This document shows, piece by piece, positions 1 through 24,388 of a stretch of 24,501 nucleotides of DNA. The notes under the pieces were generated by a model. The model did no database searches. It saw only the letters and a program-made list of their open reading frames with translations, and was not told the origin of the DNA. Each line of letters starts with the position of its first letter. Position 1 is the first letter of the stretch. The DNA comes from a virus, in IMG/VR virus record IMGVR_UViG_3300025840_000235, positions 1 to 24,501 of that record. One strand, 5' to 3'. The position numbers and the translations under genes are program-made.

Positions 1-3000
1 CGAATCTTTAAAAAACTTAGAATACTTATCAATGTTAGATAAGTCGCTAACTTCATTACCATCACTACCACCTAGTGCATTGTAAGCTTCCATTAATATT
101 GGGTAAGCGTCTAAATTTGTTAGACCCATTCTCATTAATTGAGAAAAACCTCTACCTTCCATACCTGAACCAGTAAGAGCTGCTTGCATTGCTGTTTGAT
201 ACACGTTTCTAAAACCTGATACACCACCTGCATCTAACAATTCATCCATTTCTCTTGCAAATAGTAAGTCTGCAAGGTCCTGTGTTACATCACTAATTTG
301 TGTTTTCAAAGAACTAAAATCAAATGTTCCTTCTTTTGTTAAATTATTGATTAATCCAAATAATGTTTCAACTCTTGTGTTTACAGAACCAAATGCACCT
401 TCAAGAGCACCTATTTCGTCAACATATTCAGGAGCATTTTCTTTAAAGTTTGCATAAGCTGCATCAACAGATAAAACACCTTCAGCAACTCTTTCTTCAG
501 CTTCTGCAATTCCATTAGCACCTGCTTGTACATCTAATGATATAAGTTTTTGCTCATCTAATAATTGTATATATGCATCTCTAGCAGCTACTAGCTCTGG
601 AGATATTTCTAATATTTCTTTTTCATATTCTGCTTTTTGTTCTAAAGCATTAGAGTATTCAAGTAAAAATAATTCTTTTTCTGTTTCTGATTTAAACTCC
701 CCTTTCATTTCACGAAGTTCATCTCTAGCAGCGTCTACCTCTAAAGCACTAACTATTCCTAAATTAAACATTCTTCCAAGTTCAGCAACTTCTTTTTCTT
801 TAGCTTGAATATCTAATTGTTCTCTAGCTGTGTAGTCTTTATCTAATCTACGCTTTCTTTCTGTTAAATCTAGTTCTCTCTGTAAAAGACCAATACGTTC
901 TTGGACTGTGATGTTACCAGCCATTCCAGTAACTTCTAACTTCATAAGTTTTTCTTTTTGCTTTTCTAATCTTTCAGATAAAGAAGCTTCTCTACGTAAT
1001 ACAGCAGCATAATCTTGTTTTGCTTTAACTAATGCTCTAGCTTGGTCTGTTTGAGCTCTTTCTGCTCTTGTAACTTGTGTGATTATTGCAAAAGCCTCTT
1101 GCATTCTAGAGTTTGCTTGTTGATAGGATTTAGCTAACTTTTCTGCAAACATATCTAAGTTTTGCATCATAGTCGTTCCTAAACTTGATAAGAAACCTTG
1201 TGTTAAAAAGTCGTTAGTTAGATATTGACTATTTCCTGATATTTTTCCTGCTAATTCTTCATAAGATACATTTGTTCCTTTATAACTACCTTTCATGTCT
1301 GGTAGTTCGAAGTCAGCTACAGAATCATTAATAACTGCTGCAAAAGTATCTTTAAGTTTTAACTTACCATTTTCTATACCTACTATTACACCATCTATTA
1401 ATGGTTCACCAATGTGCTTTGCAGTAAATCTTGAAGGAGAGAATATTCCATACAATGTAAATACATTGTTAAAAGCGTTGTCTAATACTTCTACGAACAT
1501 ATCTGTTATTTCTTCAGAGTTTTCTTCTATACCTTTGACAATACCCATAACAGAAGCTTCACCCATAAAGTATCCCATTTCTTCGAGTCTTTCTTTTTCG
1601 GCATCTTCTGCTTCTTCAGGAACTATTTCAGAAACATAATCGCTACCACCAAGACCTCTTAAATACATTTCCTGTGCAGAAGCAAGTGCTGGATTTGATA
1701 AATATGTTTGTGCCATATCTAATCCACCTACACCAACTTTTGCAAGTTCAGCAGCTAATACTGGTTTACCAAAAGCTCCCAATGCAGTTAATGTTTTTTC
1801 AAACTTAGCTTGTGCTGCACTTTTTTTAATTGTGTTTAGTAACACATCTAAAGCAGTCATGTCTTGAAATGCATCATCAGGTAATGGAGCTGTCAAATTA
1901 ACTAATGATTTTCTCGCGTCTGTAAATGCTTTGTCTAATCTTGCTGCAAGTTGTATAGCAGCATTCTCAGTAATTCCCAATTCTTTCTTTAGTTCATCAG
2001 AAGCTAGCTTGTTATCTTTAGTAAACTTGTCATAAGTTTTTGTATATAATTCAACAATTCTTTGGTAGTTATTTCCTGCCCTTTTAATTTCTTCTTCTGT
2101 AACAATTCCAGTATCTCTGAAATCTTCTAATCTAGCTACTAAGAATTTCTTAATTTCTCTACCAAGACCAGAACCTGGTCCTAATGTATTTTTAAAGTTA
2201 GCTTCAATATTTTCTAAACTTGTACCAACAATACCTTCAGCTGTTGATATTGCTTTTGCTATATCAAAAACAAATTGTGCTACATCTTGGTCTGTGTATT
2301 CTTCACCGAAGATATCTCTAAATGTATTAAACATATTTTTGAGCTGTTCCATAGCACTTTGACCCGGAGTAAAATCAAATTGTTTTAAATCGCCCATAAT
2401 GTATTTAAGAATACCTTCATCTCCTAATCCAAGTTTTTTACCCCAATTCATTAAGTCATTTGAAAGCTCTCCTAAAACATTTGGGTCATTAAGATTATCT
2501 AATCCTGTCATTGCGAATATTTCTTTAGAGCCTATTCTTTTATCAGAAGACTCTTGTAAAGCTATAAGCATTCCTGATGAAACTCCACTAAATAAATCTG
2601 ATGGTATGTATATATCTTTATATCCACTTGCATCTATTGTGGTATCGCTAAACAATAAACTATCCATAAGTTCTTGTATAGTAGGAAGCTTTCCTCCTGT
2701 TCTTTTTAGATTTTCTGGGTCTACTGCATTAAGTATTACATTTCCTACAGCAGTACCAATGTCTTGTCTGATATCTGCTTCAGATTTTTTGAAAGCTATA
2801 GCTTCTTGTTTAATTAATGATTCTAAGTAACCACCTTGATTTTTACTTTCTCTACCTGCTCTTGCGATAATTATGTTTTCTACAAACGATTGACCTAACT
2901 CTGCTGCTAGTTCTCTTCTAGCTTTTTGATTAGCAGCTTCAAGTTGTTCTATTTTTTTGAGCGCATTTTCTAATACTGCTTTATCTGTTATTTCATCTAA

Positions 3001-5487
3001 TACTCCACCAGATTGTAACTGGTCAAGTTTTAATTGATTCATGTAAAGTTCATTTAGTTTTTCTGATGCTTCTGATAAAGCAGCTGAATATTCTTCAACA
3101 CCTCTAGCAGCTGCACCAAACTTTCCAACTAATTTGAATATACCTTGTATTGCTACTGTGTATATAAGCATCTTACCAAGAGCTTTAACAGTTCCCATAA
3201 CAGCATTTGTAAACCTACCCAAGCCTGCTCTACCTTTGTCAACAGCTTCTAAGAATTGAAGTTCTGATGCAGTTGCTTCTCCAGTATTTTTAACTTTCTC
3301 TTGTAACGAAGCTACTACATCATTGAATGCTTTACTTTGTCCCTGTAATGCAGATTTTCTTAATCTAGCTCTATCAAGTCTTCCCATATTACCAAAATCT
3401 AACTGGTCTCCGTATAGAGCTTCTATTTGTTTGTCTAGTACTTGATTAAATCCCTTACCCTTACCTCTAGCAGCACCCATGAATGCATTTAAATCATTTA
3501 ATAATGTTTTTCTTCTTAAAAATTGTTGATTAGTAACATTTATTCTTTCTGCAAAAGATTTTTCATCGATAGACAATTTTGATTGGACTTTTCTTAATTT
3601 TAATATTGCAGCGCTTTGTCCTTTTAGTAATTGAAGTTTAAGTTTACCCATTTTGGTAGGAGCAAATCTTCTAAATCCTCCACGCATTTTTTCTTCTCCA
3701 AGTGTCATAAATGGGTCATTAGATACTGATAATTCTTGTAAAGCTAATTGTTCAGCAGTTGCTTTTGCATAAGCTCCTATCCCAAATGCATCAGCAGTAG
3801 CGTTATTTCTCAGACCAGGACTTACAAGTTGGTTTTGTATTTCTTGTACTTTTGCTGCATAGTTAGAAAGACCATATAATTCTTTAGGAATATTTCCACC
3901 ATAAATTAATGAAGTTACAGCAGGATTTGCTAGTGTCTCCATTAAACGCATCTGGTACTTTCCAGGCATTAACCTTTCCATCAATCCAGATGGACCTAGT
4001 GTATTAAATGGTAATCCTATGTCTCCTTTGAACATTCTTGTTTTTGTAGCATATGCAGCTACGCTGGCACCTTCAGCACTAACAGCTGTTAATGAAGCGA
4101 CTTCACCTAAAGATGATTTCAATAAGGCTGCAGCACCTTGAGCTCTTTCCAAGCTAGCAGCAAGTATTCCACCTTCTGTAGCAGAAGAAGTTAATGATAT
4201 TTTTACTCCTCTTAATATAGAATAAGCTACTCCAAGAACACCTAATCCTCCAGAAAATTTAGCAAATAATGTAGTTGCAGCTTTTGTTGTTGCGAATAAA
4301 AAGTTGTTTAAATCTTTTACAATGTTTTTAGCACCATCTAAATTATCTAGCCCAAAATCTATAAATTCTGCTTTTACTAAATTTTTTCCTCTTTGTAGTT
4401 CAGAGAATAATGTTTCATATCTTCTCTCAGCTTCTTCTGTTAATGCATTGTTTTCTAAGTATGCTTCATTAGCAGTATTTAATGCATCATATAAAGTATC
4501 GTTTGCTTTTGCTAAAGCTAGTATTGCTTTTTGTGTTCTTACCTGACCCAATCCCATTTTTTGTAGTACAGATATGTTTGTAAGACCTACGCTAGAAGTA
4601 TCTTCTAATCCTTTTATAAATGCTGCTACTGCTTGTGATGAATCTAATTTAAATAACTGTTCAAATGCAGGAACAGACATTCTTGCAACTTTAGCAAACA
4701 TTTCAAGATTGTCTCCACCCTGAGCAATTGCTTCAGACATTTCAGACATTAATCTTACAATTGCTGTAGCACCTGCTTGTGACGGCTGACCTATAGCTTT
4801 AAGTGCAGTTGAAAATGCTAAAGCGTCAACTGCTGCATTATTCATTTCACCTTGTATCTGAGCTGTAGAAGTTGCAATTTGTAATGCTGCTGTAACTATT
4901 TCAGATTCTTGAGCAGCAAAGTTGTTACCTAATGCAACAAGTGACGAACCTAAGTTATCTAGTTCTGAAGTTGCTGTGCCAGTTATTTCTTGAAGTCTTG
5001 ACATAGCCATAGCTGCATTTTCTGCGGATAGGTTTGTTGCTATTGTAAGTTTTTGTATTGTATCTGTGAAGCTAACAATATCTTTAGCAGCTACACCTAA
5101 CTGTCCACCAATTGCAGCAATCTCTGTTACTGTATCTGTGGTTGCTGGAGAAAGTTTAGTTAAATCTCTTAATTTTTTAGATATGGAATCTAAAGATTTT
5201 TCTACTTGTTTTGAGTCACCAGCTATATCTAATGTTTTCTTTACTCTAACAAATTGTTCTTCAAAGCTAGCTGCGGCACCAACACCAGCTGCAAATGATG
5301 CAGCAATAGTAGCACCAACCATCATAAAGTTAGTTTGAGCACTAGCAGCAATAGCATTAACTTTTGCTAGCTTGGTTTTCATTCCATTGAATGATTGAGC
5401 TATCTCACTATTTGCTTTTCTTAGAGAAGCTTTATCGTAACCAGCTTCGATTACTGCACGTACTTTAAATGCGTCTATTGATGCCAT
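1..5487 (-). CDS. Tail tape-measure protein (C-terminus beyond window)
   Basis: Sets tail length and is threaded through the tail tube during assembly. The frame is open from the ATG at 5487 to the window edge, giving 1829 codons with no stop in the lines I checked. Residues about 50-400 form the conserved TP901/PhageMin_Tail-type core, rich in Ala/Ser/Thr, with motifs such as TEIAAIGGQLGVAAKDI. A hydrophobic stretch lies near residues 405-430 (GGLGVLGVAYSILRGV). Near residue 1350 is the typical GIFSPSRF...IGEPLIDG motif, followed by long Lys/Glu/Arg coiled coils. It starts 3 bases after the GT chaperone frame ends, the standard order in siphoviruses. At about 0.15 nm per residue (known rule), 1829 residues imply a tail of at least about 270 nm. 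No strong Shine-Dalgarno (SD) is visible, so it is probably coupled to chaperone translation. Confidence 0.93.
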   Translation of the reverse strand, partial: MASIDAFKVRAVIEAGYDKASLRKANSEIAQSFNGMKTKLAKVNAIAASAQTNFMMVGATIAASFAAGVGAAASFEEQFVRVKKTLDIAGDSKQVEKSLDSISKKLRDLTKLSPATTDTVTEIAAIGGQLGVAAKDIVSFTDTIQKLTIATNLSAENAAMAMSRLQEITGTATSELDNLGSSLVALGNNFAAQESEIVTAALQIATSTAQIQGEMNNAAVDALAFSTALKAIGQPSQAGATAIVRLMSEMSEAIAQGGDNLEMFAKVARMSVPAFEQLFKLDSSQAVAAFIKGLEDTSSVGLTNISVLQKMGLGQVRTQKAILALAKANDTLYDALNTANEAYLENNALTEEAERRYETLFSELQRGKNLVKAEFIDFGLDNLDGAKNIVKDLNNFLFATTKAATTLFAKFSGGLGVLGVAYSILRGVKISLTSSATEGGILAASLERAQGAAALLKSSLGEVASLTAVSAEGASVAAYATKTRMFKGDIGLPFNTLGPSGLMERLMPGKYQMRLMETLANPAVTSLIYGGNIPKELYGLSNYAAKVQEIQNQLVSPGLRNNATADAFGIGAYAKATAEQLALQELSVSNDPFMTLGEEKMRGGFRRFAPTKMGKLKLQLLKGQSAAILKLRKVQSKLSIDEKSFAERINVTNQQFLRRKTLLNDLNAFMGAARGKGKGFNQVLDKQIEALYGDQLDFGNMGRLDRARLRKSALQGQSKAFNDVVASLQEKVKNTGEATASELQFLEAVDKGRAGLGRFTNAVMGTVKALGKMLIYTVAIQGIFKLVGKFGAAARGVEEYSAALSEASEKLNELYMNQLKLDQLQSGGVLDEITDKAVLENALKKIEQLEAANQKARRELAAELGQSFVENIIIARAGRESKNQGGYLESLIKQEAIAFKKSEADIRQDIGTAVGNVILNAVDPENLKRTGGKLPTIQELMDSLLFSDTTIDASGYKDIYIPSDLFSGVSSGMLIALQESSDKRIGSKEIFAMTGLDNLNDPNVLGELSNDLMNWGKKLGLGDEGILKYIMGDLKQFDFTPGQSAMEQLKNMFNTFRDIFGEEYTDQDVAQFVFDIAKAISTAEGIVGTSLENIEANFKNTLGPGSGLGREIKKFLVARLEDFRDTGIVTEEEIKRAGNNYQRIVELYTKTYDKFTKDNKLASDELKKELGITENAAIQLAARLDKAFTDARKSLVNLTAPLPDDAFQDMTALDVLLNTIKKSAAQAKFEKTLTALGAFGKPVLAAELAKVGVGGLDMAQTYLSNPALASAQEMYLRGLGGSDYVSEIVPEEAEDAEKERLEEMGYFMGEASVMGIVKGIEENSEEITDMFVEVLDNAFNNVFTLYGIFSPSRFTAKHIGEPLIDGVIVGIENGKLKLKDTFAAVINDSVADFELPDMKGSYKGTNVSYEELAGKISGNSQYLTNDFLTQGFLSSLGTTMMQNLDMFAEKLAKSYQQANSRMQEAFAIITQVTRAERAQTDQARALVKAKQDYAAVLRREASLSERLEKQKEKLMKLEVTGMAGNITVQERIGLLQRELDLTERKRRLDKDYTAREQLDIQAKEKEVAELGRMFNLGIVSALEVDAARDELREMKGEFKSETEKELFLLEYSNALEQKAEYEKEILEISPELVAARDAYIQLLDEQKLISLDVQAGANGIAEAEERVAEGVLSVDAAYANFKENAPEYVDEIGALEGAFGSVNTRVETLFGLINNLTKEGTFDFSSLKTQISDVTQDLADLLFAREMDELLDAGGVSGFRNVYQTAMQAALTGSGMEGRGFSQLMRMGLTNLDAYPILMEAYNALGGSDGNEVSDLSNIDKYSKFFKDS

Positions 5488-5490
5488 ATA

Positions 5491-6197
5491 TTACTCGTCT
5501 TTAGAAATGTCATTAAGGGTTGTTCTACTACCTAGCCCATCCGACTGGGCAATAAAATCGTCTAATGATATCCTACTACGCATCCTTCCAGTTCTGTTGG
5601 CTTTCCGGTCGTATTCTTGTTTAGTATTTCTTATATTATTAGGTGCACTTTCTGTTTCATCATTATCAGAATCCAAGAATGCAGAATAATAAGGTGACAA
5701 AAATAATGATTTGTCAAATGGCAACCCACCAATTAATACCATAAATCTTCTCCATGATATATTTAATGGATTATCTATTTTGTACCAGCGAAGGAAGTCA
5801 GCTTCTATACTAGACCAACGTTCTAGTATTTCGTGTAAGCTAAATGTTATGCTTTTGGGTCAGCTTCACCTTCCGCATCTACCTCAGCACTTTCTTCATC
5901 AGAAATATTGTATGCTTCAAGTAGGAATTGAAGTAGTTCATCTAATTGAGGCCATGTAGCACCTGCGTCTAACATTTCCTCTAGATTATCTTTACCAACT
6001 AATGATTCTAACCATAATGGTAGATTGTTAGCTTCCATACCACCATTAGAATCCATTAATTTCATTTGGGTAAGAACTACTCTTGCTGGTAGCTGACCAG
6101 GAAGTTCATATTGTTTTCCTGCTATTACGAATTTAACTTTTTCATTGTCAGCTTCAGATAAAGCTGCATCAAAGTCTTTAAATTTTTTGTCGTCCAT
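5491..6197 (-). CDS. Tail-assembly chaperone GT, -1 frameshift fusion
   Basis: Predicted product of a programmed -1 frameshift in the last codons of the 116-aa chaperone gene. The first 115 residues come from the upstream frame. After the slip at 5859-5853, reading continues with AGC ATA ACA and stays open for 120 codons to TAA at 5493-5491, giving about 235 aa. The added part contains ISWRRFMVLIGGLPFDKS, which resembles the gpT segment of lambda- and mycobacteriophage-type chaperones, then a polar tail. A small ORF could start at the internal ATG at 5742, but that would cut off the conserved W-R-R segment just upstream, so I treat the region as the frameshift extension. Family knowledge: G and GT bind the tape measure and are absent from the mature virion. 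Confidence 0.85.
5847..6197 (-). CDS. Tail-assembly chaperone G-like protein
   Basis: 116-aa acidic protein located between the major tail protein and tape-measure genes, the invariant place of the G-type tail-assembly chaperone. It starts with MDDKKFKDFDAALSEAD, and the helical middle (LLPLWLESLVGKDNLEEMLD-like) is followed by an acidic C-terminus ending DPKA. The start ATG at 6197 is preceded by AAAGG at 5-nt spacing, with a further AGGAG upstream. The final codons GAC CCA AAA GCA TAA hold the slippery site. The major tail protein ends 45 nt upstream. Identity rests mainly on position, size and the frameshift rather than on sequence similarity. Confidence 0.85.
   Translation of the reverse strand: MDDKKFKDFDAALSEADNEKVKFVIAGKQYELPGQLPARVVLTQMKLMDSNGGMEANNLPLWLESLVGKDNLEEMLDAGATWPQLDELLQFLLEAYNISDEESAEVDAEGEADPKA
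5853..5874 (-). other. Programmed -1 ribosomal frameshift site
   Basis: On the minus strand the heptamer C CCA AAA (5859-5853) sits in the zero frame, two codons before the stop, and fits the X XXY YYZ rule for tandem -1 slippage. Upstream lies GGAAGGTGA (5874-5866), which resembles a Shine-Dalgarno element. Its AGGTGA core ends 6 nt before the heptamer. In dnaX and related sites an internal SD stimulates -1 slippage, so the same may apply here. I see no obvious strong downstream hairpin. The -1 frame is the one that carries the gpT-like extension. Confidence 0.85.
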
Positions 6198-6242
6198 ACC
6201 GACCTTTATCTCCTATATGTAAATTAATACTTATATCAACTA

Positions 6243-6896
6243 TTAGTTGACATCAAATTCTGTTGAGTCGCCTGTGTTATCAACAATGATGAAGAGGTGT
6301 TTTTTACCACCTGTAGCTCCAACATTTAATGTATCATCAGGGACTAACAACTTAAACTCAGTTGCTATAACCACTTTTTGTGGTGCTTTAGCGTGTGACA
6401 TTGAGAAAGCTCCAACTGATACCATTCTAGGCATATGTATTTGCCTATCAGCACCTGCTGGACCCTCAAGTATTAACAATCCAGCTAATTCGCTGAATGA
6501 GTCAGTAATTGGGGCTTTTATTACATCATAATCTGTTGTAAATAAAGTACTGTCCTCGTCGACATAAGTGTCGAGTTGTCCCATAGCTATTGACAAGTTT
6601 TTAAGTGATGCCTGTGATAGCTCACCCATTAACCTTGCTTCCTGAGCAGTTTTAATTGTCTTAATTGGGTCTACTTCTTCTGCGACTAAAATGTCTTCAA
6701 AAGTTCTGTCCATTTCAAGAGTCCAACCATCTTCGGAATATCCGATGTCTCTCCAGTTTGCTGATGCTACAGCTGGTGTTTGAAAAGCACCTGCTCCGTC
6801 ATCAGCTGGGAAAGCTACGTTAGCTCTATCTCCGACATAAAGTACACCAGTACCGATTAATACTTCGTTAATCGTACCATTAGTATAAGTTGCCAT
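6243..6896 (-). CDS. Major tail (tube) protein
   Basis: 217 aa, the usual size of siphovirus tail-tube proteins. It begins MATYTNGTINEVLIGTGVLY and contains WRDIGYSEDGWTLEMDR, a pattern common in major tail proteins of actinobacteriophages. It then has a Thr/Val-rich beta-type body and ends with a repeat-poor C-terminus. It is expected to polymerise around the tape measure. A strong SD (AGGAG, 7-nt spacer) precedes the ATG at 6896, in line with high expression. It lies directly upstream of the chaperone pair. No C-terminal Ig-like domain is apparent. Confidence 0.85.
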   Translation of the reverse strand: MATYTNGTINEVLIGTGVLYVGDRANVAFPADDGAGAFQTPAVASANWRDIGYSEDGWTLEMDRTFEDILVAEEVDPIKTIKTAQEARLMGELSQASLKNLSIAMGQLDTYVDEDSTLFTTDYDVIKAPITDSFSELAGLLILEGPAGADRQIHMPRMVSVGAFSMSHAKAPQKVVIATEFKLLVPDDTLNVGATGGKKHLFIIVDNTGDSTEFDVN

Positions 6897-6909
6897 TTAA
6901 CTTCTCCTG

Positions 6910-7182
6910 CTATTCTTCTTCTAGTATATCTTCGAAGATATCCTCATTTGAGGAATCTACAGTGTCGTATCCAATGTTGGAATCAGCTTCATTGTCTTCC
7001 ACTGAATCCTCATCAACGATAAAGATGTTCATGTTATTTTTTAACAATCTTTCTCCATCTTTGACATCAACCTCTACCCATTCTTTGCTAGTGAATTTAA
7101 TACCTGTTACGGTATCACGCACAACATCAGCCTTTGTAAACAAGGGACTGACTTTTATCTTCATTGTTTTTTTAGCAAACAT
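6910..7182 (-). CDS. Small acidic protein of unknown function, tail region
   Basis: 90 aa, not recognised. The first 55 residues look folded (KVSPLFTKADVVRDTVTG, then FTSKEWVEVD and ERLLKNNMNIFIV). The last 35 are strongly acidic (NEADSNIGYDTVDSSNEDIFEDILEEE-like). Neither the ATG at 7182 nor the alternative Met at residue 7 (7164) has a clear SD. Short proteins with this N-terminal pattern, a beta unit ending in 'LL.N..I.IV', often sit between neck and tail genes, but I cannot name the family. It ends 13 nt before the major tail gene, so co-transcription is expected. Confidence 0.65.
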   Translation of the reverse strand: MFAKKTMKIKVSPLFTKADVVRDTVTGIKFTSKEWVEVDVKDGERLLKNNMNIFIVDEDSVEDNEADSNIGYDTVDSSNEDIFEDILEEE

Positions 7183-7232
7183 AATACTTAAATGGTATAT
7201 GATTGTTTAGAAATATGTGGTATTTATAAAAA

Positions 7233-7703
7233 TTAAACTGCTCTATAAGTCATACCAACTGAAAAGTCATATCTACCTAAACCAGTAGAAACTTCATCTA
7301 TTCTTGTTGGCATTTGAAGAATGTCTATTCCGTATATTTTAGCTCTAGTACTTGAATCATCTGTAGTAATATATTCGTTTTCCATATTGAAACATTCTTG
7401 TATTACAGCGTTTGCCAATTGCATTGCTCCACCATAATCAGGGTTTGCTTTAGTATCATCTCCACCCCATTGTCCTGCATAAGCAATAATTGGAAATATT
7501 GCAGATTGTATATGTACTTGTGAAGTAGGTCTTACTAAAATACCACCTGCTCTAATAAATACTAGGAATGGTAATTCAGCATCTCTTGGTAATCTTGTTG
7601 CTATTCTATTGTCTACCAAGTCTGTAATACCAGTTTTGGTTGTTAAAAATTTTCTGAATATAATTTCAGCGTCTGGTGGTACGGGTTGTCCTGTAGTTGG
7701 CAT
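7233..7703 (-). CDS. Tail terminator / tail completion protein
   Basis: 156 aa. The N-terminus (AEIIFRKFLTTKTGITDLVDNRIATRLP) followed by PFLVFIRAGG is typical of the tail-terminator/DUF3168-like family, which caps the tail tube and joins it to the neck. The C-terminal strand (GRYDFSVGMTYRA) also fits the fold. Its place after the head-closure and neck genes and before the major tail protein supports this. The ATG at 7703 lacks an SD but has a perfect TATAAT six bases upstream. The assignment is by pattern and context; a neck (Ne1-type) role is the main alternative. Confidence 0.72.
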   Translation of the reverse strand: MPTTGQPVPPDAEIIFRKFLTTKTGITDLVDNRIATRLPRDAELPFLVFIRAGGILVRPTSQVHIQSAIFPIIAYAGQWGGDDTKANPDYGGAMQLANAVIQECFNMENEYITTDDSSTRAKIYGIDILQMPTRIDEVSTGLGRYDFSVGMTYRAV

Positions 7704-7709
7704 GTACTA

Positions 7710-7715
7710 ATTATA
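7710..7715 (-). promoter_or_regulatory. Candidate -10 box at leaderless spacing
   Basis: On the minus strand TATAAT (7715-7710) is followed by TAGTAC and then the tail-terminator ATG at 7703. This distance would place the transcription start at or beside the A of the ATG. The gene has no SD. I see no convincing -35 and the 38-nt gap is very AT-rich, so chance is a real possibility. Confidence 0.35.
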
Positions 7716-7741
7716 TATATAAATAACTATTGTTTTGTTAT

Positions 7742-10700
7742 TTAACCACGAGGCCATGGACTATATTCTATTGGGTTTGGTCCTTGATTCCAGAACCTTC
7801 CAGCAAGAGCTCTAGAAAGATATTCTTCAGACCTTGCAGGTGATGTAGCATGCATTTTTAACAGTTTTGCTATTTCATTAAAGTCATTTGTGCTCAAAGT
7901 TGGTATTGCACCATGATTTGTTTCAATAAAATTTTTAAAGTTAAAACCTAACATATGTAAAGCTCTAACTAATTTATGATATTCAGGTGGGAGTTCTCTA
8001 AATTTATTTGCATCTTCTACTTTTCTACTAGCTAAAAAATTAGTTACTCTCACAGCTTTACCTCCACTTTGTCCCCCTGTTGGAACAGAAGCGTACCACA
8101 TTTGCTCCACAAATTTAGCCAATTCGTTTGTTCTACCCATTACTGCAGATGATTGTCCTCTTGCGGCAGATAAAGCAAGTAAATCACTGTAAACAGTTTC
8201 ATCGCTTACTGTTCTAGCTGTTTTTCTTAAACTTTTAAAATACTCTTGTGCTACTTCTCTATGGCTAGCTACTCCGTATTTTGCTAGTCTAAGTACATGT
8301 GTAAAGGTTTTACCTCTATTGTATATTGGACCCATCCCTCTCATTACTGATTCACTTGAAGGGAAAGGGTCTCTTAATGCATCAACAACTACTTTTTCTA
8401 AACCCTGGTCAACACCAACTTCAATTCCATTTTTAAATTTACCTTTTAACTCAGGTCCGCTTTCAAAATTATTGTTATTTGAATCTGCTAGCATTCTTTT
8501 TATAGATAATATTTTTTCTTTATTACCTCTATCACCTGGATGTGCATTATTAACCAATGCTTGAATTTGAGCATCTAAACCTGCCTGACTATAAATATTG
8601 TCAAATGTTAAATCAGCAGGGTCCATTCCTAAATCTCTGAAAGCTTTATTTCCGTGAATACCATATTTTGGGTCTGCAGCAAAGTTACTTTTGTTTCTCC
8701 ACTCTTCACTATAGAATTCCATTAAGGCAGCTTCTTTAGCGCTAAAGTCTCCTTCATTAGCTAACACTTTAACTACATTATTTGATGCATCTTTAGCTAC
8801 CAATTTAATACCATCTTCGTCAGGTATAAGTTGAACATTAGAAGAGTTAATTAAATCTAAATCTAATTTTCCATCAGATTGGTAAAAAACATCTGCAATT
8901 TCTTCAGTTAATAACTTAGTTTCACCCATTCTGTTTCTTATTGAACTTGCATTTTTAGTTGCATTTAATTTACAATATTTAACAGTTAATGCTACTTGTC
9001 TTAAAAATGCTCTAAATGGTAGTTCACTTCCTGTTTCAGAAAGACCTAAATGGTTTAAGATTGCTTTATTCAGACTCCTCATAAATACTTCAGCGTTTTC
9101 TCTAGCATATTGTCTTATTTGTCTTTCCAACATTTCACCTTTTGCTGTTCCTTTTAATGAGGATATTATTCCAGCTAGTTCTGATTGGTAAGCTTGATAT
9201 GTATAAACTTGTATTTCTCTTGCTACACCCGCATCATTTAAGAAAGCTTTTTTAAACATATTTGTTGGATGTGCAGGACTATTCAAAGGTATCTTTTTAC
9301 CTCCAAGAGTATGCATAGGACCATCAATATTCTTTAAACCAAAAACTTCAGCTACTCCTTCAACGTCACCATCTATAATTTTTCTTATGACCGGGTCTTC
9401 ACTTGGATTTAATTCCCAATCTAATCTGTAATCAAAACCAGTGTCAACTTGTCCAGCTGTTCTTGACTGCTGTACCATATGTCTAAGTTGACCTGGACTT
9501 AATCCTGTAAATTCAGAAAATGCATTCCAATTAACGCTATTTTTAGCTGTATTAAATCTTTTAGTACCACCACCGTATCTATTTACTTCTACAGTGTCAT
9601 GAGCTAACTCAGTAAATATGTTTTGAAGTTTGTTTAATTGATTGTTTAATAAAGGTACTACAGGCATTTCTCCATATACATCCATACCTGTTGCTAAGTT
9701 TCTATATTTAGTTGTATACAATCTTCCAACATTATTATTACCAGTTCCATAAGAGTGAGTTATTCCATGTATAGAATTCCTATCTCCTAATGGGTCAGAT
9801 AATTTACCAATATACTTTCTGCTACCAGCACTGTAATAACCTAAATTTGCTGAGTTCATTGTAAAGTTTGAAGCTACTTTATCACCAGTAATTCCTAAGT
9901 TTCCTCTAGTAACATCATCCATAGAAGTAAACAAATCTCCACCACTCATATTTCCAAATTGACCAGTATTTCTAAATAAGGCTAAAGATTTCTGTGAAGC
10001 AATTCTTGCCTCTGCACTATTAAAACTAGAGTTGGTTCTAGCACCATCTTTAAATACTTGTGTTAAATCTTTTTCTAATTTTGCTAAACGATTTTTACCC
10101 TGTCTCATATCTTCTTTAATTTGTTTTACGTCAAATCTAGTTCTACTTCTATTGGGACCATCACCTTTTAAATCCAAAGGACTTATAGCTCCTGAACCAG
10201 AAATTTTTGCTGCAAAATCCATACCGTCGACATTGCTTCTAAACTCTGTTCCTTTGTCCCATATTCCTAAGTATGCAGCTGATTTAGTACCTGCTATACC
10301 CATAAAGTGAGAAGGTAAGAAAAACATACCATCAGTTCTTTTTTCTATTTGCATGTTTTTATCGTGAGCAAATCCGCCATATTCTATCTGAGCTATATCT
10401 CTAATAGCGTCAGCTGTTTTAGAGTTTTTATTACTACCACCAGCAGAAACTGAAAATCTAAACAAGTATGGAGTTCCGTCATTTTCATTTCTACCGAATC
10501 TATCCATATCATGCATATGTATAGATTTTCTGATTTGCCCTCTAGTTGGTACATAGTTGTGACTATTTTTTAAAGCAGTAGATTTTCCCTGAAAGCTAGT
10601 TTTGCCTTCATGAAATACTGAACCTCCATATGTTGTACCTGTCATATTTTCAATAAGGTTAGACCTTTTACCATTATCTAACATAGCTTTTTCAATTTTT

Positions 10701-12868
10701 CTAGTAAGACTACCTTTATCTGTACTTACTGTTGCTCCTGTTAATTCATTTAAAATACTACCCATACCTATTAGCTTTAAATTGTTTGCAAATTCGCTGT
10801 GCATTCTTGTTAATTTATTCATCCACCATTGTTCGGGTTTTCCATAAACTTTTCCTGTTTTTTTAAATTGTCTATGAACACTACCGGTCAAATGTAATTT
10901 TTTAAATTTACCATTAGGAGCTAATTCAACAGACATACCTTTTACATTTCCAGATAAAAAGTCTTCATATGAAAAATACCTATCTCTATTAGGTTCTTTT
11001 ACAGTCGAATGAAAACCAGAACCACCACCAGTGACATCTCCCACACCCAATTTGTTAAAATATTTTTTTGTTTTAGGTAAAGTCATGTGGTCTCCAGTTA
11101 CACCTCTATAGCTTTTAACTACAGGAGGACCAGTATCAGAATCAAGAAATTGTATTTTACCTAAAGAGTATTTAGTACTTCCTTTTCTTCCTAAATACTC
11201 TCTCATCATTTTTGTGTTGCTGAATATATCTCCTGTTGGCTGGAACCTATATCCTAAATCAACATCACCAGGATTCTTACCAGAAACTAAACTATATAAG
11301 ACACCTTGATTCATAGCACCTTGCAAATTATTAATAATGTTGTTTCTTCCTTTTAAGAATCCTTTGTTTAAGTTAAAAGGAAGAATATCTAATCCAGGAT
11401 TACTTTTTTTTGTAAAACCAGCTTGTGATTTTATAACCTTAGCTAAAGTGGTATATCCATTTTTCCTAAGTGCATCAACTAAATTTTGTAAAGATGAAGC
11501 TTGCATACCAGCACCTACAAAAAATCCTTGTTTTACTTCAAATGAACTAACTGTAGTTACCATTTGTGTAAGTAAGTCTGTCATTCCAGCGGCACTCATT
11601 TTATCTAATTTTGGAAATGGAAAGTTAAAAGCAGCTGCTACATTTTTCATTTCATTTAAAATGTCAGGTCCTAATTCAAATGATGATAATACATCAAAAT
11701 CAACAGCACCGCCAGCACCAATATCGTTATGCCACGAACGTAAAAATTCTGCATTTAATTTGTTTTGTAAATCTCTTTGTTTAAGGGTACTCATTCTTTG
11801 GTTTTCAGGGTCGTAAACAATATCTTGAACCTTTTCTCCTCTTTCATTTCTAGCAGTATTAAGATGCGTGTAACCTTCTTTTAAAGTTTCTCTATCTTCG
11901 TAATCTCTAGTTTGAGTACTGTTGCTACGCATAATTTTTCCAATAGAGTTGTATTCAGCTTGTTCCATAGCTCTTATTCTTCTTTCAGTAGATAGCTTTT
12001 CGTATTTATTTTTACCTTTAAAATAATCAAGAGATTCTGCATCTAAAATTGAATTAACTATATCTCCTTGAAATCCGGCTGCCCCACCAAAGTTTTGAGC
12101 GTCTGCTATTGACATAAGTTGATTAGCTCTAGTAGCGTTGATACCTACATTTAAATCTTGATTAAATTGAAGAGAAGTTACATCAAAAGTGTCACCTTTA
12201 GTTTTGACTGTCTTACTCCTTATTTTTTCAGCTTTACGCATAGGATTATCTCTAAATGGGTCAGGAGCTCCTTTAAAAGCTTCTGTAAATGTTAAAACTT
12301 GCCATTTCTGAAATACATTATTCTTACTTGGTAGTTGAGCTTGTCTTAGTATCTCAGCATCCATTTTTCTAGCATCAGCAGTTTGAACTACTTCCATCAA
12401 AGCTCCAGCTGAACCAAACTCTCTAATGTTTTTTAATAAGCCAGCTGACTCTCTACCTAATATAATATTTGTAGCTCTATCTACAGGAGTACCAGTTCTT
12501 AATGCTCTAGAAATTGCACCTTTAGTCTTACCAACATATTTTGCACCACCTAATAATTTCTGTCTTTTCAATACCTGACCACCAAGTAAATTTGTTGGTT
12601 GTTTTAAGTTTTTTACAACTGAACGAGCAGTGTTTGTATATTCACCAATTAGATATGGAACGCTTACTATTTGACCTAAATCTAAACCAAAAGAACCTAA
12701 TGTAGTTAAGTTATAACCAACCGCATATACTCTTTCTCTAGGATTTAAATTTTTAAGGCTTTTAAATAAAGGTATTTTACCTGGCCCATATTTAGAACTT
12801 TTATCTGTGAGAGTTATTCCACCAGTTTTAAAAAACTGTCTTGTGGCGCTACCTAATCTGTAAGCCAT
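7742..12868 (-). CDS. Giant 1708-aa neck-region protein with embedded gp10-like domain
   Basis: Not recognised as a whole. The ATG at 12868 overlaps the head-closure stop (TAATG), so translation is coupled. It fills the slot normally held by a small HK97-gp10-family neck protein. About residues 735-860 look like that family: YVPTRGQIRKSI (772-783), then YLFRFSVSAGGS, then IEYGGFAH (828-835) and MFFLPSHFMGI, the order usually seen as 'P-TG-LR-SI ... EYG ... PFL'. The remaining 1500 or so residues are soluble, rich in Asn, Lys and Gly, with charged helices. I found one cysteine (in TVKYCKLN) and only a mild hydrophobic patch near residues 50-75. A virion-associated neck/ejection role is inference. 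No protease, lysozyme or nuclease motif was seen. Confidence 0.8.
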   Translation of the reverse strand: MAYRLGSATRQFFKTGGITLTDKSSKYGPGKIPLFKSLKNLNPRERVYAVGYNLTTLGSFGLDLGQIVSVPYLIGEYTNTARSVVKNLKQPTNLLGGQVLKRQKLLGGAKYVGKTKGAISRALRTGTPVDRATNIILGRESAGLLKNIREFGSAGALMEVVQTADARKMDAEILRQAQLPSKNNVFQKWQVLTFTEAFKGAPDPFRDNPMRKAEKIRSKTVKTKGDTFDVTSLQFNQDLNVGINATRANQLMSIADAQNFGGAAGFQGDIVNSILDAESLDYFKGKNKYEKLSTERRIRAMEQAEYNSIGKIMRSNSTQTRDYEDRETLKEGYTHLNTARNERGEKVQDIVYDPENQRMSTLKQRDLQNKLNAEFLRSWHNDIGAGGAVDFDVLSSFELGPDILNEMKNVAAAFNFPFPKLDKMSAAGMTDLLTQMVTTVSSFEVKQGFFVGAGMQASSLQNLVDALRKNGYTTLAKVIKSQAGFTKKSNPGLDILPFNLNKGFLKGRNNIINNLQGAMNQGVLYSLVSGKNPGDVDLGYRFQPTGDIFSNTKMMREYLGRKGSTKYSLGKIQFLDSDTGPPVVKSYRGVTGDHMTLPKTKKYFNKLGVGDVTGGGSGFHSTVKEPNRDRYFSYEDFLSGNVKGMSVELAPNGKFKKLHLTGSVHRQFKKTGKVYGKPEQWWMNKLTRMHSEFANNLKLIGMGSILNELTGATVSTDKGSLTRKIEKAMLDNGKRSNLIENMTGTTYGGSVFHEGKTSFQGKSTALKNSHNYVPTRGQIRKSIHMHDMDRFGRNENDGTPYLFRFSVSAGGSNKNSKTADAIRDIAQIEYGGFAHDKNMQIEKRTDGMFFLPSHFMGIAGTKSAAYLGIWDKGTEFRSNVDGMDFAAKISGSGAISPLDLKGDGPNRSRTRFDVKQIKEDMRQGKNRLAKLEKDLTQVFKDGARTNSSFNSAEARIASQKSLALFRNTGQFGNMSGGDLFTSMDDVTRGNLGITGDKVASNFTMNSANLGYYSAGSRKYIGKLSDPLGDRNSIHGITHSYGTGNNNVGRLYTTKYRNLATGMDVYGEMPVVPLLNNQLNKLQNIFTELAHDTVEVNRYGGGTKRFNTAKNSVNWNAFSEFTGLSPGQLRHMVQQSRTAGQVDTGFDYRLDWELNPSEDPVIRKIIDGDVEGVAEVFGLKNIDGPMHTLGGKKIPLNSPAHPTNMFKKAFLNDAGVAREIQVYTYQAYQSELAGIISSLKGTAKGEMLERQIRQYARENAEVFMRSLNKAILNHLGLSETGSELPFRAFLRQVALTVKYCKLNATKNASSIRNRMGETKLLTEEIADVFYQSDGKLDLDLINSSNVQLIPDEDGIKLVAKDASNNVVKVLANEGDFSAKEAALMEFYSEEWRNKSNFAADPKYGIHGNKAFRDLGMDPADLTFDNIYSQAGLDAQIQALVNNAHPGDRGNKEKILSIKRMLADSNNNNFESGPELKGKFKNGIEVGVDQGLEKVVVDALRDPFPSSESVMRGMGPIYNRGKTFTHVLRLAKYGVASHREVAQEYFKSLRKTARTVSDETVYSDLLALSAARGQSSAVMGRTNELAKFVEQMWYASVPTGGQSGGKAVRVTNFLASRKVEDANKFRELPPEYHKLVRALHMLGFNFKNFIETNHGAIPTLSTNDFNEIAKLLKMHATSPARSEEYLSRALAGRFWNQGPNPIEYSPWPRG
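10289..10666 (-). other. HK97-gp10-like neck domain within the 1708-aa protein
   Basis: Covers residues of about 735-860. The helix before Y772, the YVPTRGQIRKSI turn, a beta-rich stretch and IEYGGFAH followed by an aromatic FFLP strand match the motif order of HK97 gp10-family proteins (head-tail connection, completing the neck). The Thr-Gly pair of the usual 'P..TG.LR.SI' motif is shifted to T-R-G here. Boundaries are estimated by eye. Confidence 0.55.
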
Positions 12869-13218
12869 TATTCAAATGCGTGTGCTGTTATTACCAGTCC
12901 TAGCGTTCTATTTGTTGGAGTAGTAGATTTCCTGACTCCATCTATTTCATAATATACGTCTGTGTTAACAGTATCTTGTAATCTATCGCTTGCTTTTACA
13001 TCAACATCACTAGGTATTTGAATTATAAAGTTTGTTAATACTGTATTTCTACCAGCTCTGTTTTCTTGACTTCCTAAATTTTGTATGTGACATTTTACAT
13101 TAGTACTTATTGTTGACCAGTCTGTACTCTCAAGTCCTCTTTCATCTATAGAAGTATCGCTAATTCTTTGGATGTTAACTTTATCAGTAAATAATCTTGT
13201 GCTTAATTTTCCAACCAT
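12868..13218 (-). CDS. Head-closure / head-tail joining protein
   Basis: 116 aa, SPP1 gp16/HK97-type head-tail joining family by pattern. It opens with FTDKVNIQR, then GLESTDWSTISTNVKCHIQ, followed by a beta barrel-like segment with IIQIPSDVDVKASDRL, and ends VITAHAFE. These match the usual 'D.v.i.r......dg..t..w......v.c.i' layout. It follows the adaptor gene, apart from the inserted HTH/zinc gene, and precedes the giant neck protein with a one-base TAATG overlap. The ATG at 13218 lacks a clear SD. A 13-nt palindrome, TCTAACAGTTAGA (13227-13239), lies in the 24-nt gap upstream of it. Confidence 0.75.
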   Translation of the reverse strand: MVGKLSTRLFTDKVNIQRISDTSIDERGLESTDWSTISTNVKCHIQNLGSQENRAGRNTVLTNFIIQIPSDVDVKASDRLQDTVNTDVYYEIDGVRKSTTPTNRTLGLVITAHAFE

Positions 13219-13242: not shown

Positions 13243-13905
13243 TTAATTTATGGTATCAGTAATTTTGGTAGATATTGCTCTCTTGGCTCTTCTAGATTTA
13301 GATTTACATGTCTTACAAAAAGGAACTAACCCATCTCTATAGTTTTTATTTGCAGTAAATGATTTAAGTGATTTTTGCTTTTTACAAAGTAAACATATTT
13401 TTTTTGTAGATTTTTCTTTTCCCTCAGCACGTTCCCTATCAAGACTTTCACTTACGCAACTTTCACACCAAGGTAATCTACCGTCTATGTATTTTTGACT
13501 TTTTGTAAAATTATCAACACTTTTAATAGAGTTACATTTCTTGCACTCTTTATCATTAGGATTTAATTTATTTTTTTTAGCAATTTTTTGTGCGTTTAAA
13601 ACTAAGCTTTCTATATCTTCTGACTTTCTAATCCAAGTCATAAAAGCTTCTCTTCCTATAGGAAACTCATCATAAAGTTCCATTTGGGTTAATGTGTATT
13701 CACCACTAGCTATCTTATTAGCTATTTGTTTAGCGACATCATAATTTATATCAAACTTTGAACCAACACCTGATTCAAGTTTAATTTGACGTACTCTTTC
13801 TATTGTTATTCCCCATTCATCAGCCCAGTAAGATAGTTTTTTGTTAGGGTATGATAAAAATAATTTTTTAGCTTCTTCTGGTGATGGTGCTTTTCTTGCA
13901 GGCAT
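13243..13905 (-). CDS. HTH plus tandem zinc-finger protein inserted among neck genes
   Basis: 220 aa. Residues 24-45 (LSYWADEWGITIERVRQIK) look like a sigma-region-4-type helix-turn-helix. A second HTH-like unit lies at about 70-93. Two zinc-binding repeats follow with identical spacing, C121-x2-C124-x22-C147-x2-C150 and C171-x2-C174-x22-C197-x2-C200, each with Phe-Thr and Asp-Gly between the pairs. This finger is familiar from phage HNH-type endonucleases, but no His-Asn-His core is present. It could be a regulator, a DNA-binding accessory protein, or an endonuclease that lost its catalytic part. It interrupts the adaptor/head-closure pair, which suggests insertion as a moron. TATAAT lies 9 nt upstream of the ATG; there is no good SD. 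Confidence 0.75.
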   Translation of the reverse strand: MPARKAPSPEEAKKLFLSYPNKKLSYWADEWGITIERVRQIKLESGVGSKFDINYDVAKQIANKIASGEYTLTQMELYDEFPIGREAFMTWIRKSEDIESLVLNAQKIAKKNKLNPNDKECKKCNSIKSVDNFTKSQKYIDGRLPWCESCVSESLDRERAEGKEKSTKKICLLCKKQKSLKSFTANKNYRDGLVPFCKTCKSKSRRAKRAISTKITDTIN

Positions 13906-13923: not shown

Positions 13924-14583
13924 TTAAATAAAAAATGTTTTCTTATATTTACCTAACATTGCTAAATCTGCACCAGATAAAACAGATACAGAGTTCATAG
14001 CTAAGTTACCTACATAATTAATTTGATAGTCTCCTACAGATTCAGAGTCTGTAGCAATAAAGTTAGACACTTGATTAGCTGAAGGTTTTTGTGCAACAAT
14101 TTCATCAGGTTCTTGTTGAGCAGATAAAACTAATGCAGATTCTAATAATCTAGCTGAAGCTCTAGCAGTTACCACTCTAAAGTTATTAGGTAGAGCAGGA
14201 CCTACGCCACCTCCTGTGTTATATCCAGCTGTATATGTAACACTGACATTATCAGGATAAGCAAAAGACCAACGAGAACCTATTCTTCTTATTCTTCCGT
14301 TTGAATACCATAAGAAATCTTCTTGATTGCCGTAAGTAAGTGTTGTTCCGTCTTCTACTACTGAAGTAACAGAGTTTACAGGTCTTTCGTCTAAGAAATA
14401 TTCTCTGGTCTGATTTCCTGAAAATGTATCAGTGTAAGTTCCATAATCTACTGTATAACCTACATATTCTCTAATAGCATCTTCGACTAAAGGAATTAAT
14501 TCATTAGTTAGATGATTTTCTAAATCTGATGAAAAGTCTATAAGAGCAAATGCTTCTGCATCTGCAGCTGTACAGAAAGCCAT
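13924..14583 (-). CDS. Head-tail adaptor (gp6-like connector)
   Basis: 219 aa. It begins MAFCTAADAEAFALIDFSSDLENHLT, then LIPLVEDAIREYVGYTVDYG, the helical start typical of gp6/gp15-type adaptors that ring the portal. Next are a beta segment (ERPVNSVTSVVEDG, then VTYTAGYNTG) and a helical C-terminus (TARASARLLESAL). Thr-Ala-Gly-Tyr before 'LP.....A....A..L' is a hallmark of the family. A strong SD (AGGAGG, 8-nt spacer) precedes the ATG. It is longer than HK97 gp6 (about 110 aa) but usual for actinobacteriophages. Confidence 0.85.
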   Translation of the reverse strand: MAFCTAADAEAFALIDFSSDLENHLTNELIPLVEDAIREYVGYTVDYGTYTDTFSGNQTREYFLDERPVNSVTSVVEDGTTLTYGNQEDFLWYSNGRIRRIGSRWSFAYPDNVSVTYTAGYNTGGGVGPALPNNFRVVTARASARLLESALVLSAQQEPDEIVAQKPSANQVSNFIATDSESVGDYQINYVGNLAMNSVSVLSGADLAMLGKYKKTFFI

Positions 14584-15246: not shown

Positions 15247-16482
15247 CTATACGTTAGTAATAGTACAGAATGCTGTTGGGCGATAAATCGCAAAACCAAG
15301 ACGCATAGTTAATCTAATTGCCAATTGGTTCTTTGCGAAGAAATCGCTATGGCTGTCGGAAACAGCTAGGTCAACGCCTTCTCTCATAATTACTTGAGCT
15401 GCGTCGCCACCGCCGAACTTACCTACAAGCATTGTGCCTTCAGCAATAACTGTTGAAGGAACTACCCTTAGACCCCAAATTCTTGGAGCAGCATCAGCAC
15501 CGAATCCGCCAGCAACGACGAACAATGGGTTCTTAGAACCACTTGTGTCAACGTCAGTTACTGATGTAACGATTTGATACCAGTCTGATGGGTGCATTAC
15601 AATTGCATCAGGTTCAACGAAAGCGTCTTTTCTGATTTCTGTAATTGCTTGATAAATTTGTCCAAGCTTTCCTAATTCTCCAGCGTATGGTAAAGCGTAA
15701 TCAAATGTATTGATTCCGGATTTTTGTAATACACCAGTTAAATTAGGAGCTGTACCATTACCATTAATTAATTGGTTGTCCATATTCAACTTCATCATTG
15801 TTGATAAACGTGAGTTGACATATCCTTGGATACCAGCAACATCAGCTAACAATTCGTCAGTTACAGGCAAGAATGTAGCCATCTTTCTGATGGATTCTGT
15901 TCTTTCTGTAAATGCAAGTGCTGATTCTAATGAAGAGGAGATGTCTCCTGATTCTGCAATAGAACCTGCATTGTTAGTAAAAGTTGTCTCTTCTAAGTAA
16001 ACATAAGCATTTTGTGATGTTTGAATTTGGTCAAACAATCCAATAACGCTATCTGGATTACGAAGAGCGGTCTCTAGGATTCCAGGAGCTCTTAGGCTCT
16101 CTGGTGGATAACCAGTGGTATTTAAAGTTGTTTTAAACTCTGCTTGAGAATCAACACCTTTAACTCCTTTTTCCACATATGCTTTGTATGCATCAGTGCT
16201 AGCAAATTGTTCCCCAATTGTTTGTGGACCTTTTTGCTCTGGCATAGCATTAGGAATAGAGTTAACTGGTGTGTTATCTTCTACTTCGAGAGCTTTCTCG
16301 TTTTTAGCTTTTGCTTCTTCGATTTTTAAATCATCAACAAGTCCAGCTAGTTCATCGTTGAGACCTTTGATTTTCTCTTTGGCCTCAGGAGTGTACTTGC
16401 CGTCTTCTTGTGAATCAAAAGCAGCTTTTAGCTCTTCACGAGATTTTGCAATTTGCTCTTTGAGCTCATTAACATTACTCAC
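15247..16482 (-). CDS. Major capsid protein, HK97 fold
   Basis: 411 aa. Residues 1-75 are a Lys/Glu-rich coiled coil (delta-domain type) followed by a Pro/Asn linker, presumably removed by the protease encoded just upstream. The mature part has typical features: YVYLEETTFTNNAGSIAESGD (E-loop/P-domain side), FLPVTDELLADVAGIQGYVNSRLS (spine helix), AIVMHPSDW (A-domain) and a C-terminal GFAIYRPTAF. The start is GTG, with AGGAG nine bases upstream; that SD overlaps the protease stop (TAGGAG). It is followed by a hairpin. Confidence 0.95.
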   Translation of the reverse strand: MSNVNELKEQIAKSREELKAAFDSQEDGKYTPEAKEKIKGLNDELAGLVDDLKIEEAKAKNEKALEVEDNTPVNSIPNAMPEQKGPQTIGEQFASTDAYKAYVEKGVKGVDSQAEFKTTLNTTGYPPESLRAPGILETALRNPDSVIGLFDQIQTSQNAYVYLEETTFTNNAGSIAESGDISSSLESALAFTERTESIRKMATFLPVTDELLADVAGIQGYVNSRLSTMMKLNMDNQLINGNGTAPNLTGVLQKSGINTFDYALPYAGELGKLGQIYQAITEIRKDAFVEPDAIVMHPSDWYQIVTSVTDVDTSGSKNPLFVVAGGFGADAAPRIWGLRVVPSTVIAEGTMLVGKFGGGDAAQVIMREGVDLAVSDSHSDFFAKNQLAIRLTMRLGFAIYRPTAFCTITNV

Positions 16483-22401: not shown

Positions 22402-22771
22402 ATCTCCCCAAGTAAGCTCTTACAAACTTAGTGTACTCTCTTTTTTGTCCAGATATAGTTTTGCCATCAAAAATATCGTGATGAAATTTACAAAAGATAG
22501 CAACATTACCTTCATCGTTCGAAATATTTCGATTCATGCCTCCCATTCCAATTCCAGTAATGTGTGCCATCTCCAACCATTGTGTAGTATCGCACTCGGG
22601 CCACTCACATCTATAGTTTGCTCGTTTTAATGCTTTTTCTCTAAGAGCTGATTTATTTATTTTTCCAGTACCTTCACGCTTTTTCTGACCCATACCGGAT
22701 ATACCAGAGTTTTCACTTCTTCTTTTTTTAAATTCTTCCCAAGTTTCATTTTCAGCATCCCAAGTTGTCAT
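22394..22771 (-). CDS. HNH endonuclease
   Basis: 125 aa from the ATG at 22771. Motifs: YRCEWPEC (C55, C60), LEMAHITG (H70), GNVAIFCKFHHDIFDG (N89, C94, H97/H98). This is the Cys-containing HNH nuclease type. I chose this start because ATGA links it to the SET gene stop; a TTG at 22783 would only add four residues. Family knowledge: HNH proteins encoded next to terminase (HK97 gp74 and others) assist specific DNA cutting during packaging. The short distance to terL supports that over a homing role. Confidence 0.85.
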   Translation of the reverse strand: MTTWDAENETWEEFKKRRSENSGISGMGQKKREGTGKINKSALREKALKRANYRCEWPECDTTQWLEMAHITGIGMGGMNRNISNDEGNVAIFCKFHHDIFDGKTISGQKREYTKFVRAYLGRYA

Positions 22772-23526: not shown

Positions 23527-24132
23527 TTATACAAAAATCCAATCAGGTTTTTCTTGTGCTGGTTTATCTTTGTAAAGAATTTGGAATATATTTGCAACTG
23601 CCATAGTATCTGCAACTGCGTCGTGTTCTAAATAATCTCCAAAACCAAATTCGTGATGTAAATGACTTAATGTATGACCTGAACATTCACTTCTACAGGT
23701 GTCAAAACATTTTGTTGGGGAATTAAAGTATTCTTTAGACATATCTTTAGTGCATAACCACTCATTAGTAAACATTGGTTTGTTGTAATAATCTAAAGTA
23801 TCCTCCATAACCTTTTTATCAAACTTAGCATTATGAGCTACAAATGTCTTTTTTCCTACTAAGCCTACTAATATTGGAAACAATTTATCAAAAGTTGGTG
23901 CATTTTCGCTATATTCTTTTTTTGGTGAAGCAAAAGACCATTCTAAATTAAAGTAAGCACTAGGGGGTTTGATGTAAGAGTGCGCAGATTCGAACTCTAA
24001 ACCGTCATACCATACTAATCCTATCTGTACTGCGTCTTGTTTTGGTACATTTTTGTCGAAATAGTATCTTCCTGCTAAATCTCTACCTGTTGTTTCAAAG
24101 TCTATAAAGATAAAATCACTTAGATTCTGCAT
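23527..24132 (-). CDS. DnaQ-like 3'-5' exonuclease (DEDDh)
   Basis: 201 aa from the ATG at 24132. Motifs: Exo I FIFIDFETTG (Asp11, Glu13), Exo II FVAHNAKFDKKV (Asp105), Exo III EHDAVADT (His170-x4-Asp175). This is the DEDDh pattern of DnaQ-type proofreading and RNase T-like exonucleases. I use this start because AAAGG precedes it at a good distance and the longer frame back to 24219 would lie within whiB. It still overlaps the end of whiB by 17 nt. Likely roles are phage DNA replication fidelity or recombination/repair. The middle carries several Cys residues (141-150) of unknown meaning. Confidence 0.9.
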   Translation of the reverse strand: MQNLSDFIFIDFETTGRDLAGRYYFDKNVPKQDAVQIGLVWYDGLEFESAHSYIKPPSAYFNLEWSFASPKKEYSENAPTFDKLFPILVGLVGKKTFVAHNAKFDKKVMEDTLDYYNKPMFTNEWLCTKDMSKEYFNSPTKCFDTCRSECSGHTLSHLHHEFGFGDYLEHDAVADTMAVANIFQILYKDKPAQEKPDWIFV

Positions 24133-24388
24133 TTTTACGCCTTTCTCTACGAATAGCTCTGCGTTCTCTCTCTGATTTACCTCCCCAAATACCAAATCTT
24201 TCTTTGCGTTCGACCGCATATTCTAAACATTCGGATTGGACTTTGCATTCGCCACAAATCTTTTTAGCAATAACTGTTGAACTTCCTCGCTCTGGAAAGA
24301 AATCATCTTGATTAACTCCCTTACAGTTAGCATATTTATAAAAACTAGGTACTGCTAGTAAATCAGCTAGTTCTGTATGTAAATCCAT
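24116..24388 (-). CDS. WhiB-like [4Fe-4S] transcriptional regulator
   Basis: 90 aa, a typical Wbl size. Four cysteines sit in the family pattern C22, C45-x2-C48-x5-C54 for the iron-sulfur cluster, followed by GIWGGKSERERR (66-77), the turn that contacts sigma factor region 4. A basic C-terminal tail (RRAIRRERRK) is for DNA binding. Known family: actinobacterial and actinophage regulators; phage WhiB proteins can interfere with host gene control and superinfection. It is the first gene leftward from the divergent region; no SD is seen, consistent with a leaderless mRNA. A LexA-type box lies 16 nt upstream of the ATG. Confidence 0.95.
   Translation of the reverse strand: MDLHTELADLLAVPSFYKYANCKGVNQDDFFPERGSSTVIAKKICGECKVQSECLEYAVERKERFGIWGGKSERERRAIRRERRKNAESK

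Follow-up and report, generated by a model that had tools for sequence, protein, structure and literature searches.

A single uninterrupted gene of 1,708 codons fills the neck slot of the head-tail gene cluster in the window, by which we mean the whole stretch of DNA analyzed here, 24,501 nucleotides of a 24.5-kb virus contig with a G+C content of about 0.32-0.40. We lean towards the reading that this gene encodes a tail completion protein, a lumenal plug with extensions borne in the tail or in the capsid; its product would work like a tail completion protein and is probably derived from one. What would be new is a tail completion protein far beyond the published length range, held constant across a clade of uncultured marine phages. 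Almost all long-tailed phages have a tail completion protein, a small protein whose place in the virion was determined only recently, and a clade that lies several-fold to more than tenfold above the published lengths would break this size rule. Giants throughout a clade suggest that the neck plug is able to bear very large extensions, so that in these viruses the head-tail plug may come with a large added structure or a cargo. A protein family unrecognized by any library, in widely sampled marine phages, now has a candidate function.

All features of the window given here lie on the minus strand. The major capsid protein of the HK97 fold (15247..16482; PF05065, 2.5e-36) belongs to the same cluster as the head-tail adaptor (Ad1; 13924..14583; phrog_442, 1e-22), the head closure or stopper protein (Hc1; 12868..13218; phrog_615, 4.3e-7), the giant (7742..12868), the tail terminator (7233..7703; phrog_123, 8e-6), the major tail or tube protein (6243..6896; phrog_2175, 1.1e-13, with matches to major tail proteins of Streptomyces phages), the tail assembly chaperone (5847..6197; phrog_6959, 6.8e-9) and the tape measure protein (1..5487; phrog_13339, 3e-67). 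The order from adaptor through head closure, giant, tail terminator, tube and chaperone to tape measure equals the one known from HK97 (adaptor, head closure, gp10, terminator, major tail protein) and also follows Ad1-Hc1-Ne1-Tc1, the published order for Type 1 necks (PMC4362835). The giant sits between Hc1 and Tc1, the gene position of the Ne1 superfamily.

One gene is additional to the HK97 order, a Zn-ribbon or endonuclease VII-like protein between adaptor and head closure (13243..13905; phrog_1035, 1.5e-12; phrog_5558, 1.1e-13). It is kept in many relatives and is without a match in others, for example L030 and L032, in which the adaptor directly adjoins the head closure gene. The chaperone gene is followed by an ORF of 83 aa (5491-5742) without a Pfam match, which may be a second chaperone product made through a frameshift. 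The tape measure protein is incomplete at the window end; a complete copy in L001 has 2,098 aa and no cysteine. On contig L280 (reverse complement 1142-9793; the contig of L067), the tape measure frame is broken at about 4148-4150 by a single in-frame stop into parts of 1,002 and 1,880 codons, for which sequencing error, mutation and recoding are candidate causes.

The giant ORF has an ATG start and no internal stops, and its start overlaps the stop of Hc1 as TAATG, an overlap kept in most of the relatives checked. The predicted protein has a pI of 9.6, a net charge of +54 and a single cysteine. The preliminary description of the window, which had placed a 1,708-aa ORF with one cysteine between head closure and tail terminator, is thus borne out, with neighbors that PHROG profiles name. 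Its three gp10 motifs are also present in the order it gave, VPTRGQIRKSI at aa 773-783, IEYGGFAH at aa 828-835 and FFLP at aa 849-852; the range it had assigned to them, 735-860, begins slightly early. An ORF identical at 100% occurs in four other contigs and one of 86-87% identity in a fifth. An assembly artefact or a pseudogene is rejected because the ORF recurs in other contigs, because all 48 comparable slots in relatives hold such an ORF, and because dN/dS is 0.06-0.33 throughout, a sign of purifying selection.

The comparable slots come from related viruses. With the capsid protein as query, 80 related loci were retrieved from IMG/VR and further scans added more; the loci that include the genes on either side of the slot yielded 48 distinct slots. 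Every one of them (48/48) holds one uninterrupted ORF of about 1,050-1,775 aa that fills 97-100% of the slot, although a good number of them belong to closely related viruses and 48 is no count of independent events. A fusion peculiar to the window phage is rejected on this ground. The earlier idea of a neck subunit grown about 13-fold therefore keeps its giant size and loses its restriction to one phage, the size being clade-wide. L012, with an ORF of 554 aa, is an uninformative short exception, since only 46 bases of contig remain beyond the ORF. Giants have a pI of 9.1-10.2 in nearly all members (6.3 in L076), and 39,753 residues of them include 8 cysteines. More distant phages have a small gene in the neck slot, of about 109-161 aa (109 aa in L209, 139 aa in L215). 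A tblastn search with four giants of different subgroups against 50,697 deposited phage records yielded no recognizable relative, and no relatives of the core were found in genome contigs.

Conservation along the protein is uneven. Profile comparison among four subgroups reveals two parts in common, a domain near the N-terminus (aa ~30-216) and a core (aa ~762-873). The N-terminal domain (aa 1-220; 12209..12868; pI 10.4), delimited by hhalign between subgroups and by alignment, is matched over aa 34-208 between subgroups G1 and G2 (E 1.7e-35) and over aa 32-216 between G1 and G3 (E 8.7e-8); its alignment is too diverged for profile scanning. It is followed by a poorly conserved linker (aa 221-740; 10649..12208; mostly 12-18% identity per 60-aa bin, dN/dS 0.17), by the putative tail-completion core of HK97-gp10 type (aa 762-873; 10250..10585), defined by conservation, by hhalign to the core of relatives and by the fold match of the joint family, and by a fast-evolving C-terminal region (aa 906-1708; 7745..10153; 9-22% identity per 60-aa bin, dN/dS 0.20-0.33). 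Members of the subgroup to which the window belongs are most alike over aa 1-240 and 781-900, and in tblastn or blastp comparisons with distant relatives often nothing but aa ~762-876 aligns. Compared with L002, the window gene has a dN/dS of 0.09 in the N-terminal part, 0.17 in the next segment, 0.06 in the core, then 0.20, and 0.33 at the C-terminus; all segments are constrained, the C-terminal one least. The flanks had been described as being of unknown fold throughout; about 200 residues at the N-terminus turn out to form a second conserved domain, traced between subgroups by hhalign.

Two conserved parts set apart by diverged linkers are also what would be seen if the giant were a polyprotein, cut into an N-terminal protein, a tail completion protein of normal size and a C-terminal protein, and the cluster also encodes a serine (S78) prohead protease. 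Proteases of the S78 type usually work inside the prohead, while a tail completion protein becomes part of the tail, and no cleavage site was noticed, short of a systematic search. We regard processing of this kind as improbable.

The relation of the core to the HK97-gp10 fold emerges from structure prediction. Scans of the whole giant, the core, the N-terminal domain and relatives against Pfam, PHROG and PDB sequences returned chance-level rows only. The giant falls below the Pfam cut-off for PF04883 (HK97-gp10_like) and is not filed as a member of that family, and PF05069 (Phage_tail_S) is absent from the Pfam scans of the whole protein, the core members and the relatives. By hhalign, the core compared with 13 HK97-gp10-type proteins, a small and imperfectly aligned set, reached probabilities of 0.1-0.2, which are not significant; the joint core profile gave no link to the normal-sized neck proteins of outgroup phages. 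AlphaFold modeling of the core from the window alone, one of the checks proposed at the outset, produced a poor model with a mean pLDDT of 52 (about 75 within the core) for which Foldseek found no match.

A better model comes from a subgroup in which the core lies nearer the N-terminus (the G4-type core of L042, L054, L057, L060 and L061). The core of the window's subgroup is homologous to it (hhalign probability 92, E 5e-7). AlphaFold, given 42 cores of both kinds in one alignment and the L057 core as the modeled query, reached a pLDDT of 79.8 and a pTM of 0.73 and predicts a long helix, a hairpin, a short helix, strands, a helix, a strand and long C-terminal helices, in that order. Foldseek matched this model among the BFVD predicted viral proteins to a "putative tail component" (E 1.9e-5, probability 1.00), to an "HK97 gp10 family phage protein" (E 3.0e-3, probability 1.00) and to several further proteins named gp10. 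Since TM-scores are modest (mostly 0.35-0.5) and the rmsd is large, these matches are support, short of proof. A gp10-type fold is therefore supported for the core family as predicted from the L057 query, the window-only model having matched nothing; for the window's own core it would follow from homology to the L057-type core (hhalign E 5e-7). The gp10 homology proposed in the preliminary description thus finds backing in the predicted fold of a relative's core and none in sequence profiles of PF04883 or PF05069.

The lack of sequence-profile support, and the fact that Foldseek matched nothing to the model of the window core, would also be compatible with some other virion or assembly protein, whose core is merely gp10-like while the true completion function lies elsewhere or has been lost. 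The gp10 slot is conserved and holds no rival candidate, and the fold matches are led by gp10 and tail components. PF04883, a weak test as the core itself scores nothing there, detected no separate gp10-type gene in the window record or in any of 20 related records; a gp10 homologue elsewhere in the genome had been named as a finding that would count against the original reading. We find this alternative hard to favor.

If the giant is a tail completion protein, its size sets it apart from those described. Ne1 proteins have 56-231 residues (PMC4362835) and the experimentally studied tail completion proteins 112-255 aa (PMC11099176); the giant, with 1,708 aa (about 1,050-1,775 aa in relatives), is outside both ranges, which are descriptive and not a definition. 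HK97 gp10 (PF04883) resembles it in gene position between head closure and tail terminator, in the predicted fold of the relatives' core and in motif order (TG-x-L-x-x-x-I / R-x-Q-I-x-x-x-I, followed by E-x-G and by PF-x-RP / LPS-x-F). It has 149 aa and lacks the giant's conserved N-terminal domain and its large extensions on both sides, and no sequence or profile score between the two is significant. SPP1 gp16.1 shares the tail completion slot, although it has 141 aa; it is required for routing DNA into the cell and was judged most likely not to be ejected (PMC11099176). The deposited phage with the closest capsid protein, at 35% identity, is MW202444 (Manatee Spring phage), whose PF05069 Phage_tail_S protein occupies the same part of the neck module but is 161 aa long and without extensions.

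One tail completion protein has a solved structure, gp51 of Staphylococcus phage 80alpha. A single copy of gp51 occupies the lumen of the neck and separates the end of the DNA from the tape measure protein: a loop covers the DNA end, and the hairpin and terminal helices lie packed against three N-termini of the tape measure protein, together with which gp51 is presumed by the authors to exit (PMC11661146). It shares with the giant the gene slot, and with the L057 core model a long N-terminal helix, a hairpin, a short helix and a long C-terminal helix. Unlike the giant, which is known from genes, it has been located in the lumen, is small (residues 7-115 were modeled) and has no extensions.

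By analogy with gp51, the core (aa ~762-873), of the HK97-gp10, SPP1-gp16.1 and 80alpha-gp51 type, would most likely sit in the neck lumen, where it would cap the end of the packaged DNA and bind the tape measure protein at its N-termini. The N-terminal (about 740 aa) and C-terminal (about 800 aa) extensions would run down the tail lumen or stay in the capsid. The first of these courses is suggested because the terminal helices of gp51 run with those of the tape measure; in a core placed in the same way both ends would point down the tail, and the extensions would most simply lie in the lumen alongside the tape measure protein and may exit with it ahead of the DNA. Position in the lumen, copy number, ejection and the role of the extensions are all inferred from this analogy. 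The length of the giant correlates with that of the tape measure between subgroups only, with no correlation within them, and so offers no independent sign that the lumen is shared. A basic and nearly cysteine-free chain would fit an internal or ejected protein, but low cysteine content, which other virion proteins here share, is weak evidence. The clade offers a natural test of where the protein ends point and of whether exit with the tape measure protein occurs.

Given a large protein in the neck slot with a fast-evolving C-terminal region, such as would suit surface exposure, it could be argued that the flanks form an external collar or whiskers, fixed to the neck through the gp10-type core. 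The sole solved homologous case is a single copy in the lumen, and Pfam finds no carbohydrate-binding, Ig-like or fibre domains in the window protein or in seven relatives; we consider an outer structure unlikely. The collar of the preliminary description, built from a ring of copies, is not favored, since a single lumenal copy as in gp51 (PMC11661146) forms no ring and makes a very large collar less likely.

A tentative extension of the lumenal plug reading is delivered cargo: one large basic chain, nearly free of cysteine, would lie threaded in the tail lumen next to the tape measure, with its gp10-type core as the plug at the top. It would enter marine actinobacteria before the DNA does, and its conserved N-terminal domain and variable C-terminal region would then target the cell or its envelope. 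We view this as possible but doubtful.

An actinobacterial host is likely because the window encodes a WhiB-like regulator (24116..24388; PF02467, 6.8e-21); from a WhiB gene and an att site, Mizuno et al. 2013 attributed to Ca. Actinomarina a fragment of a marine phage that has relatives in a phage group of 35% GC (PMC3861242). In genome contigs the capsid query found nothing better than 34-43% matches, giving no host link for the clade. Adjoining the WhiB-like gene is an exonuclease (23527-24219; RNase_T, PF00929, 5e-11), and a 98-aa SET-domain protein (22768-23064; PF00856, 8.2e-12) brings a domain of lysine methyltransferase type into a phage. The portal protein (17706-20720), with 1,004 aa, is a second overgrown head or neck protein of the window phage; its portal domain extends to about aa 400-526, and the long C-terminal part carries two DUF3721 stretches and a weak match to DUF5824.
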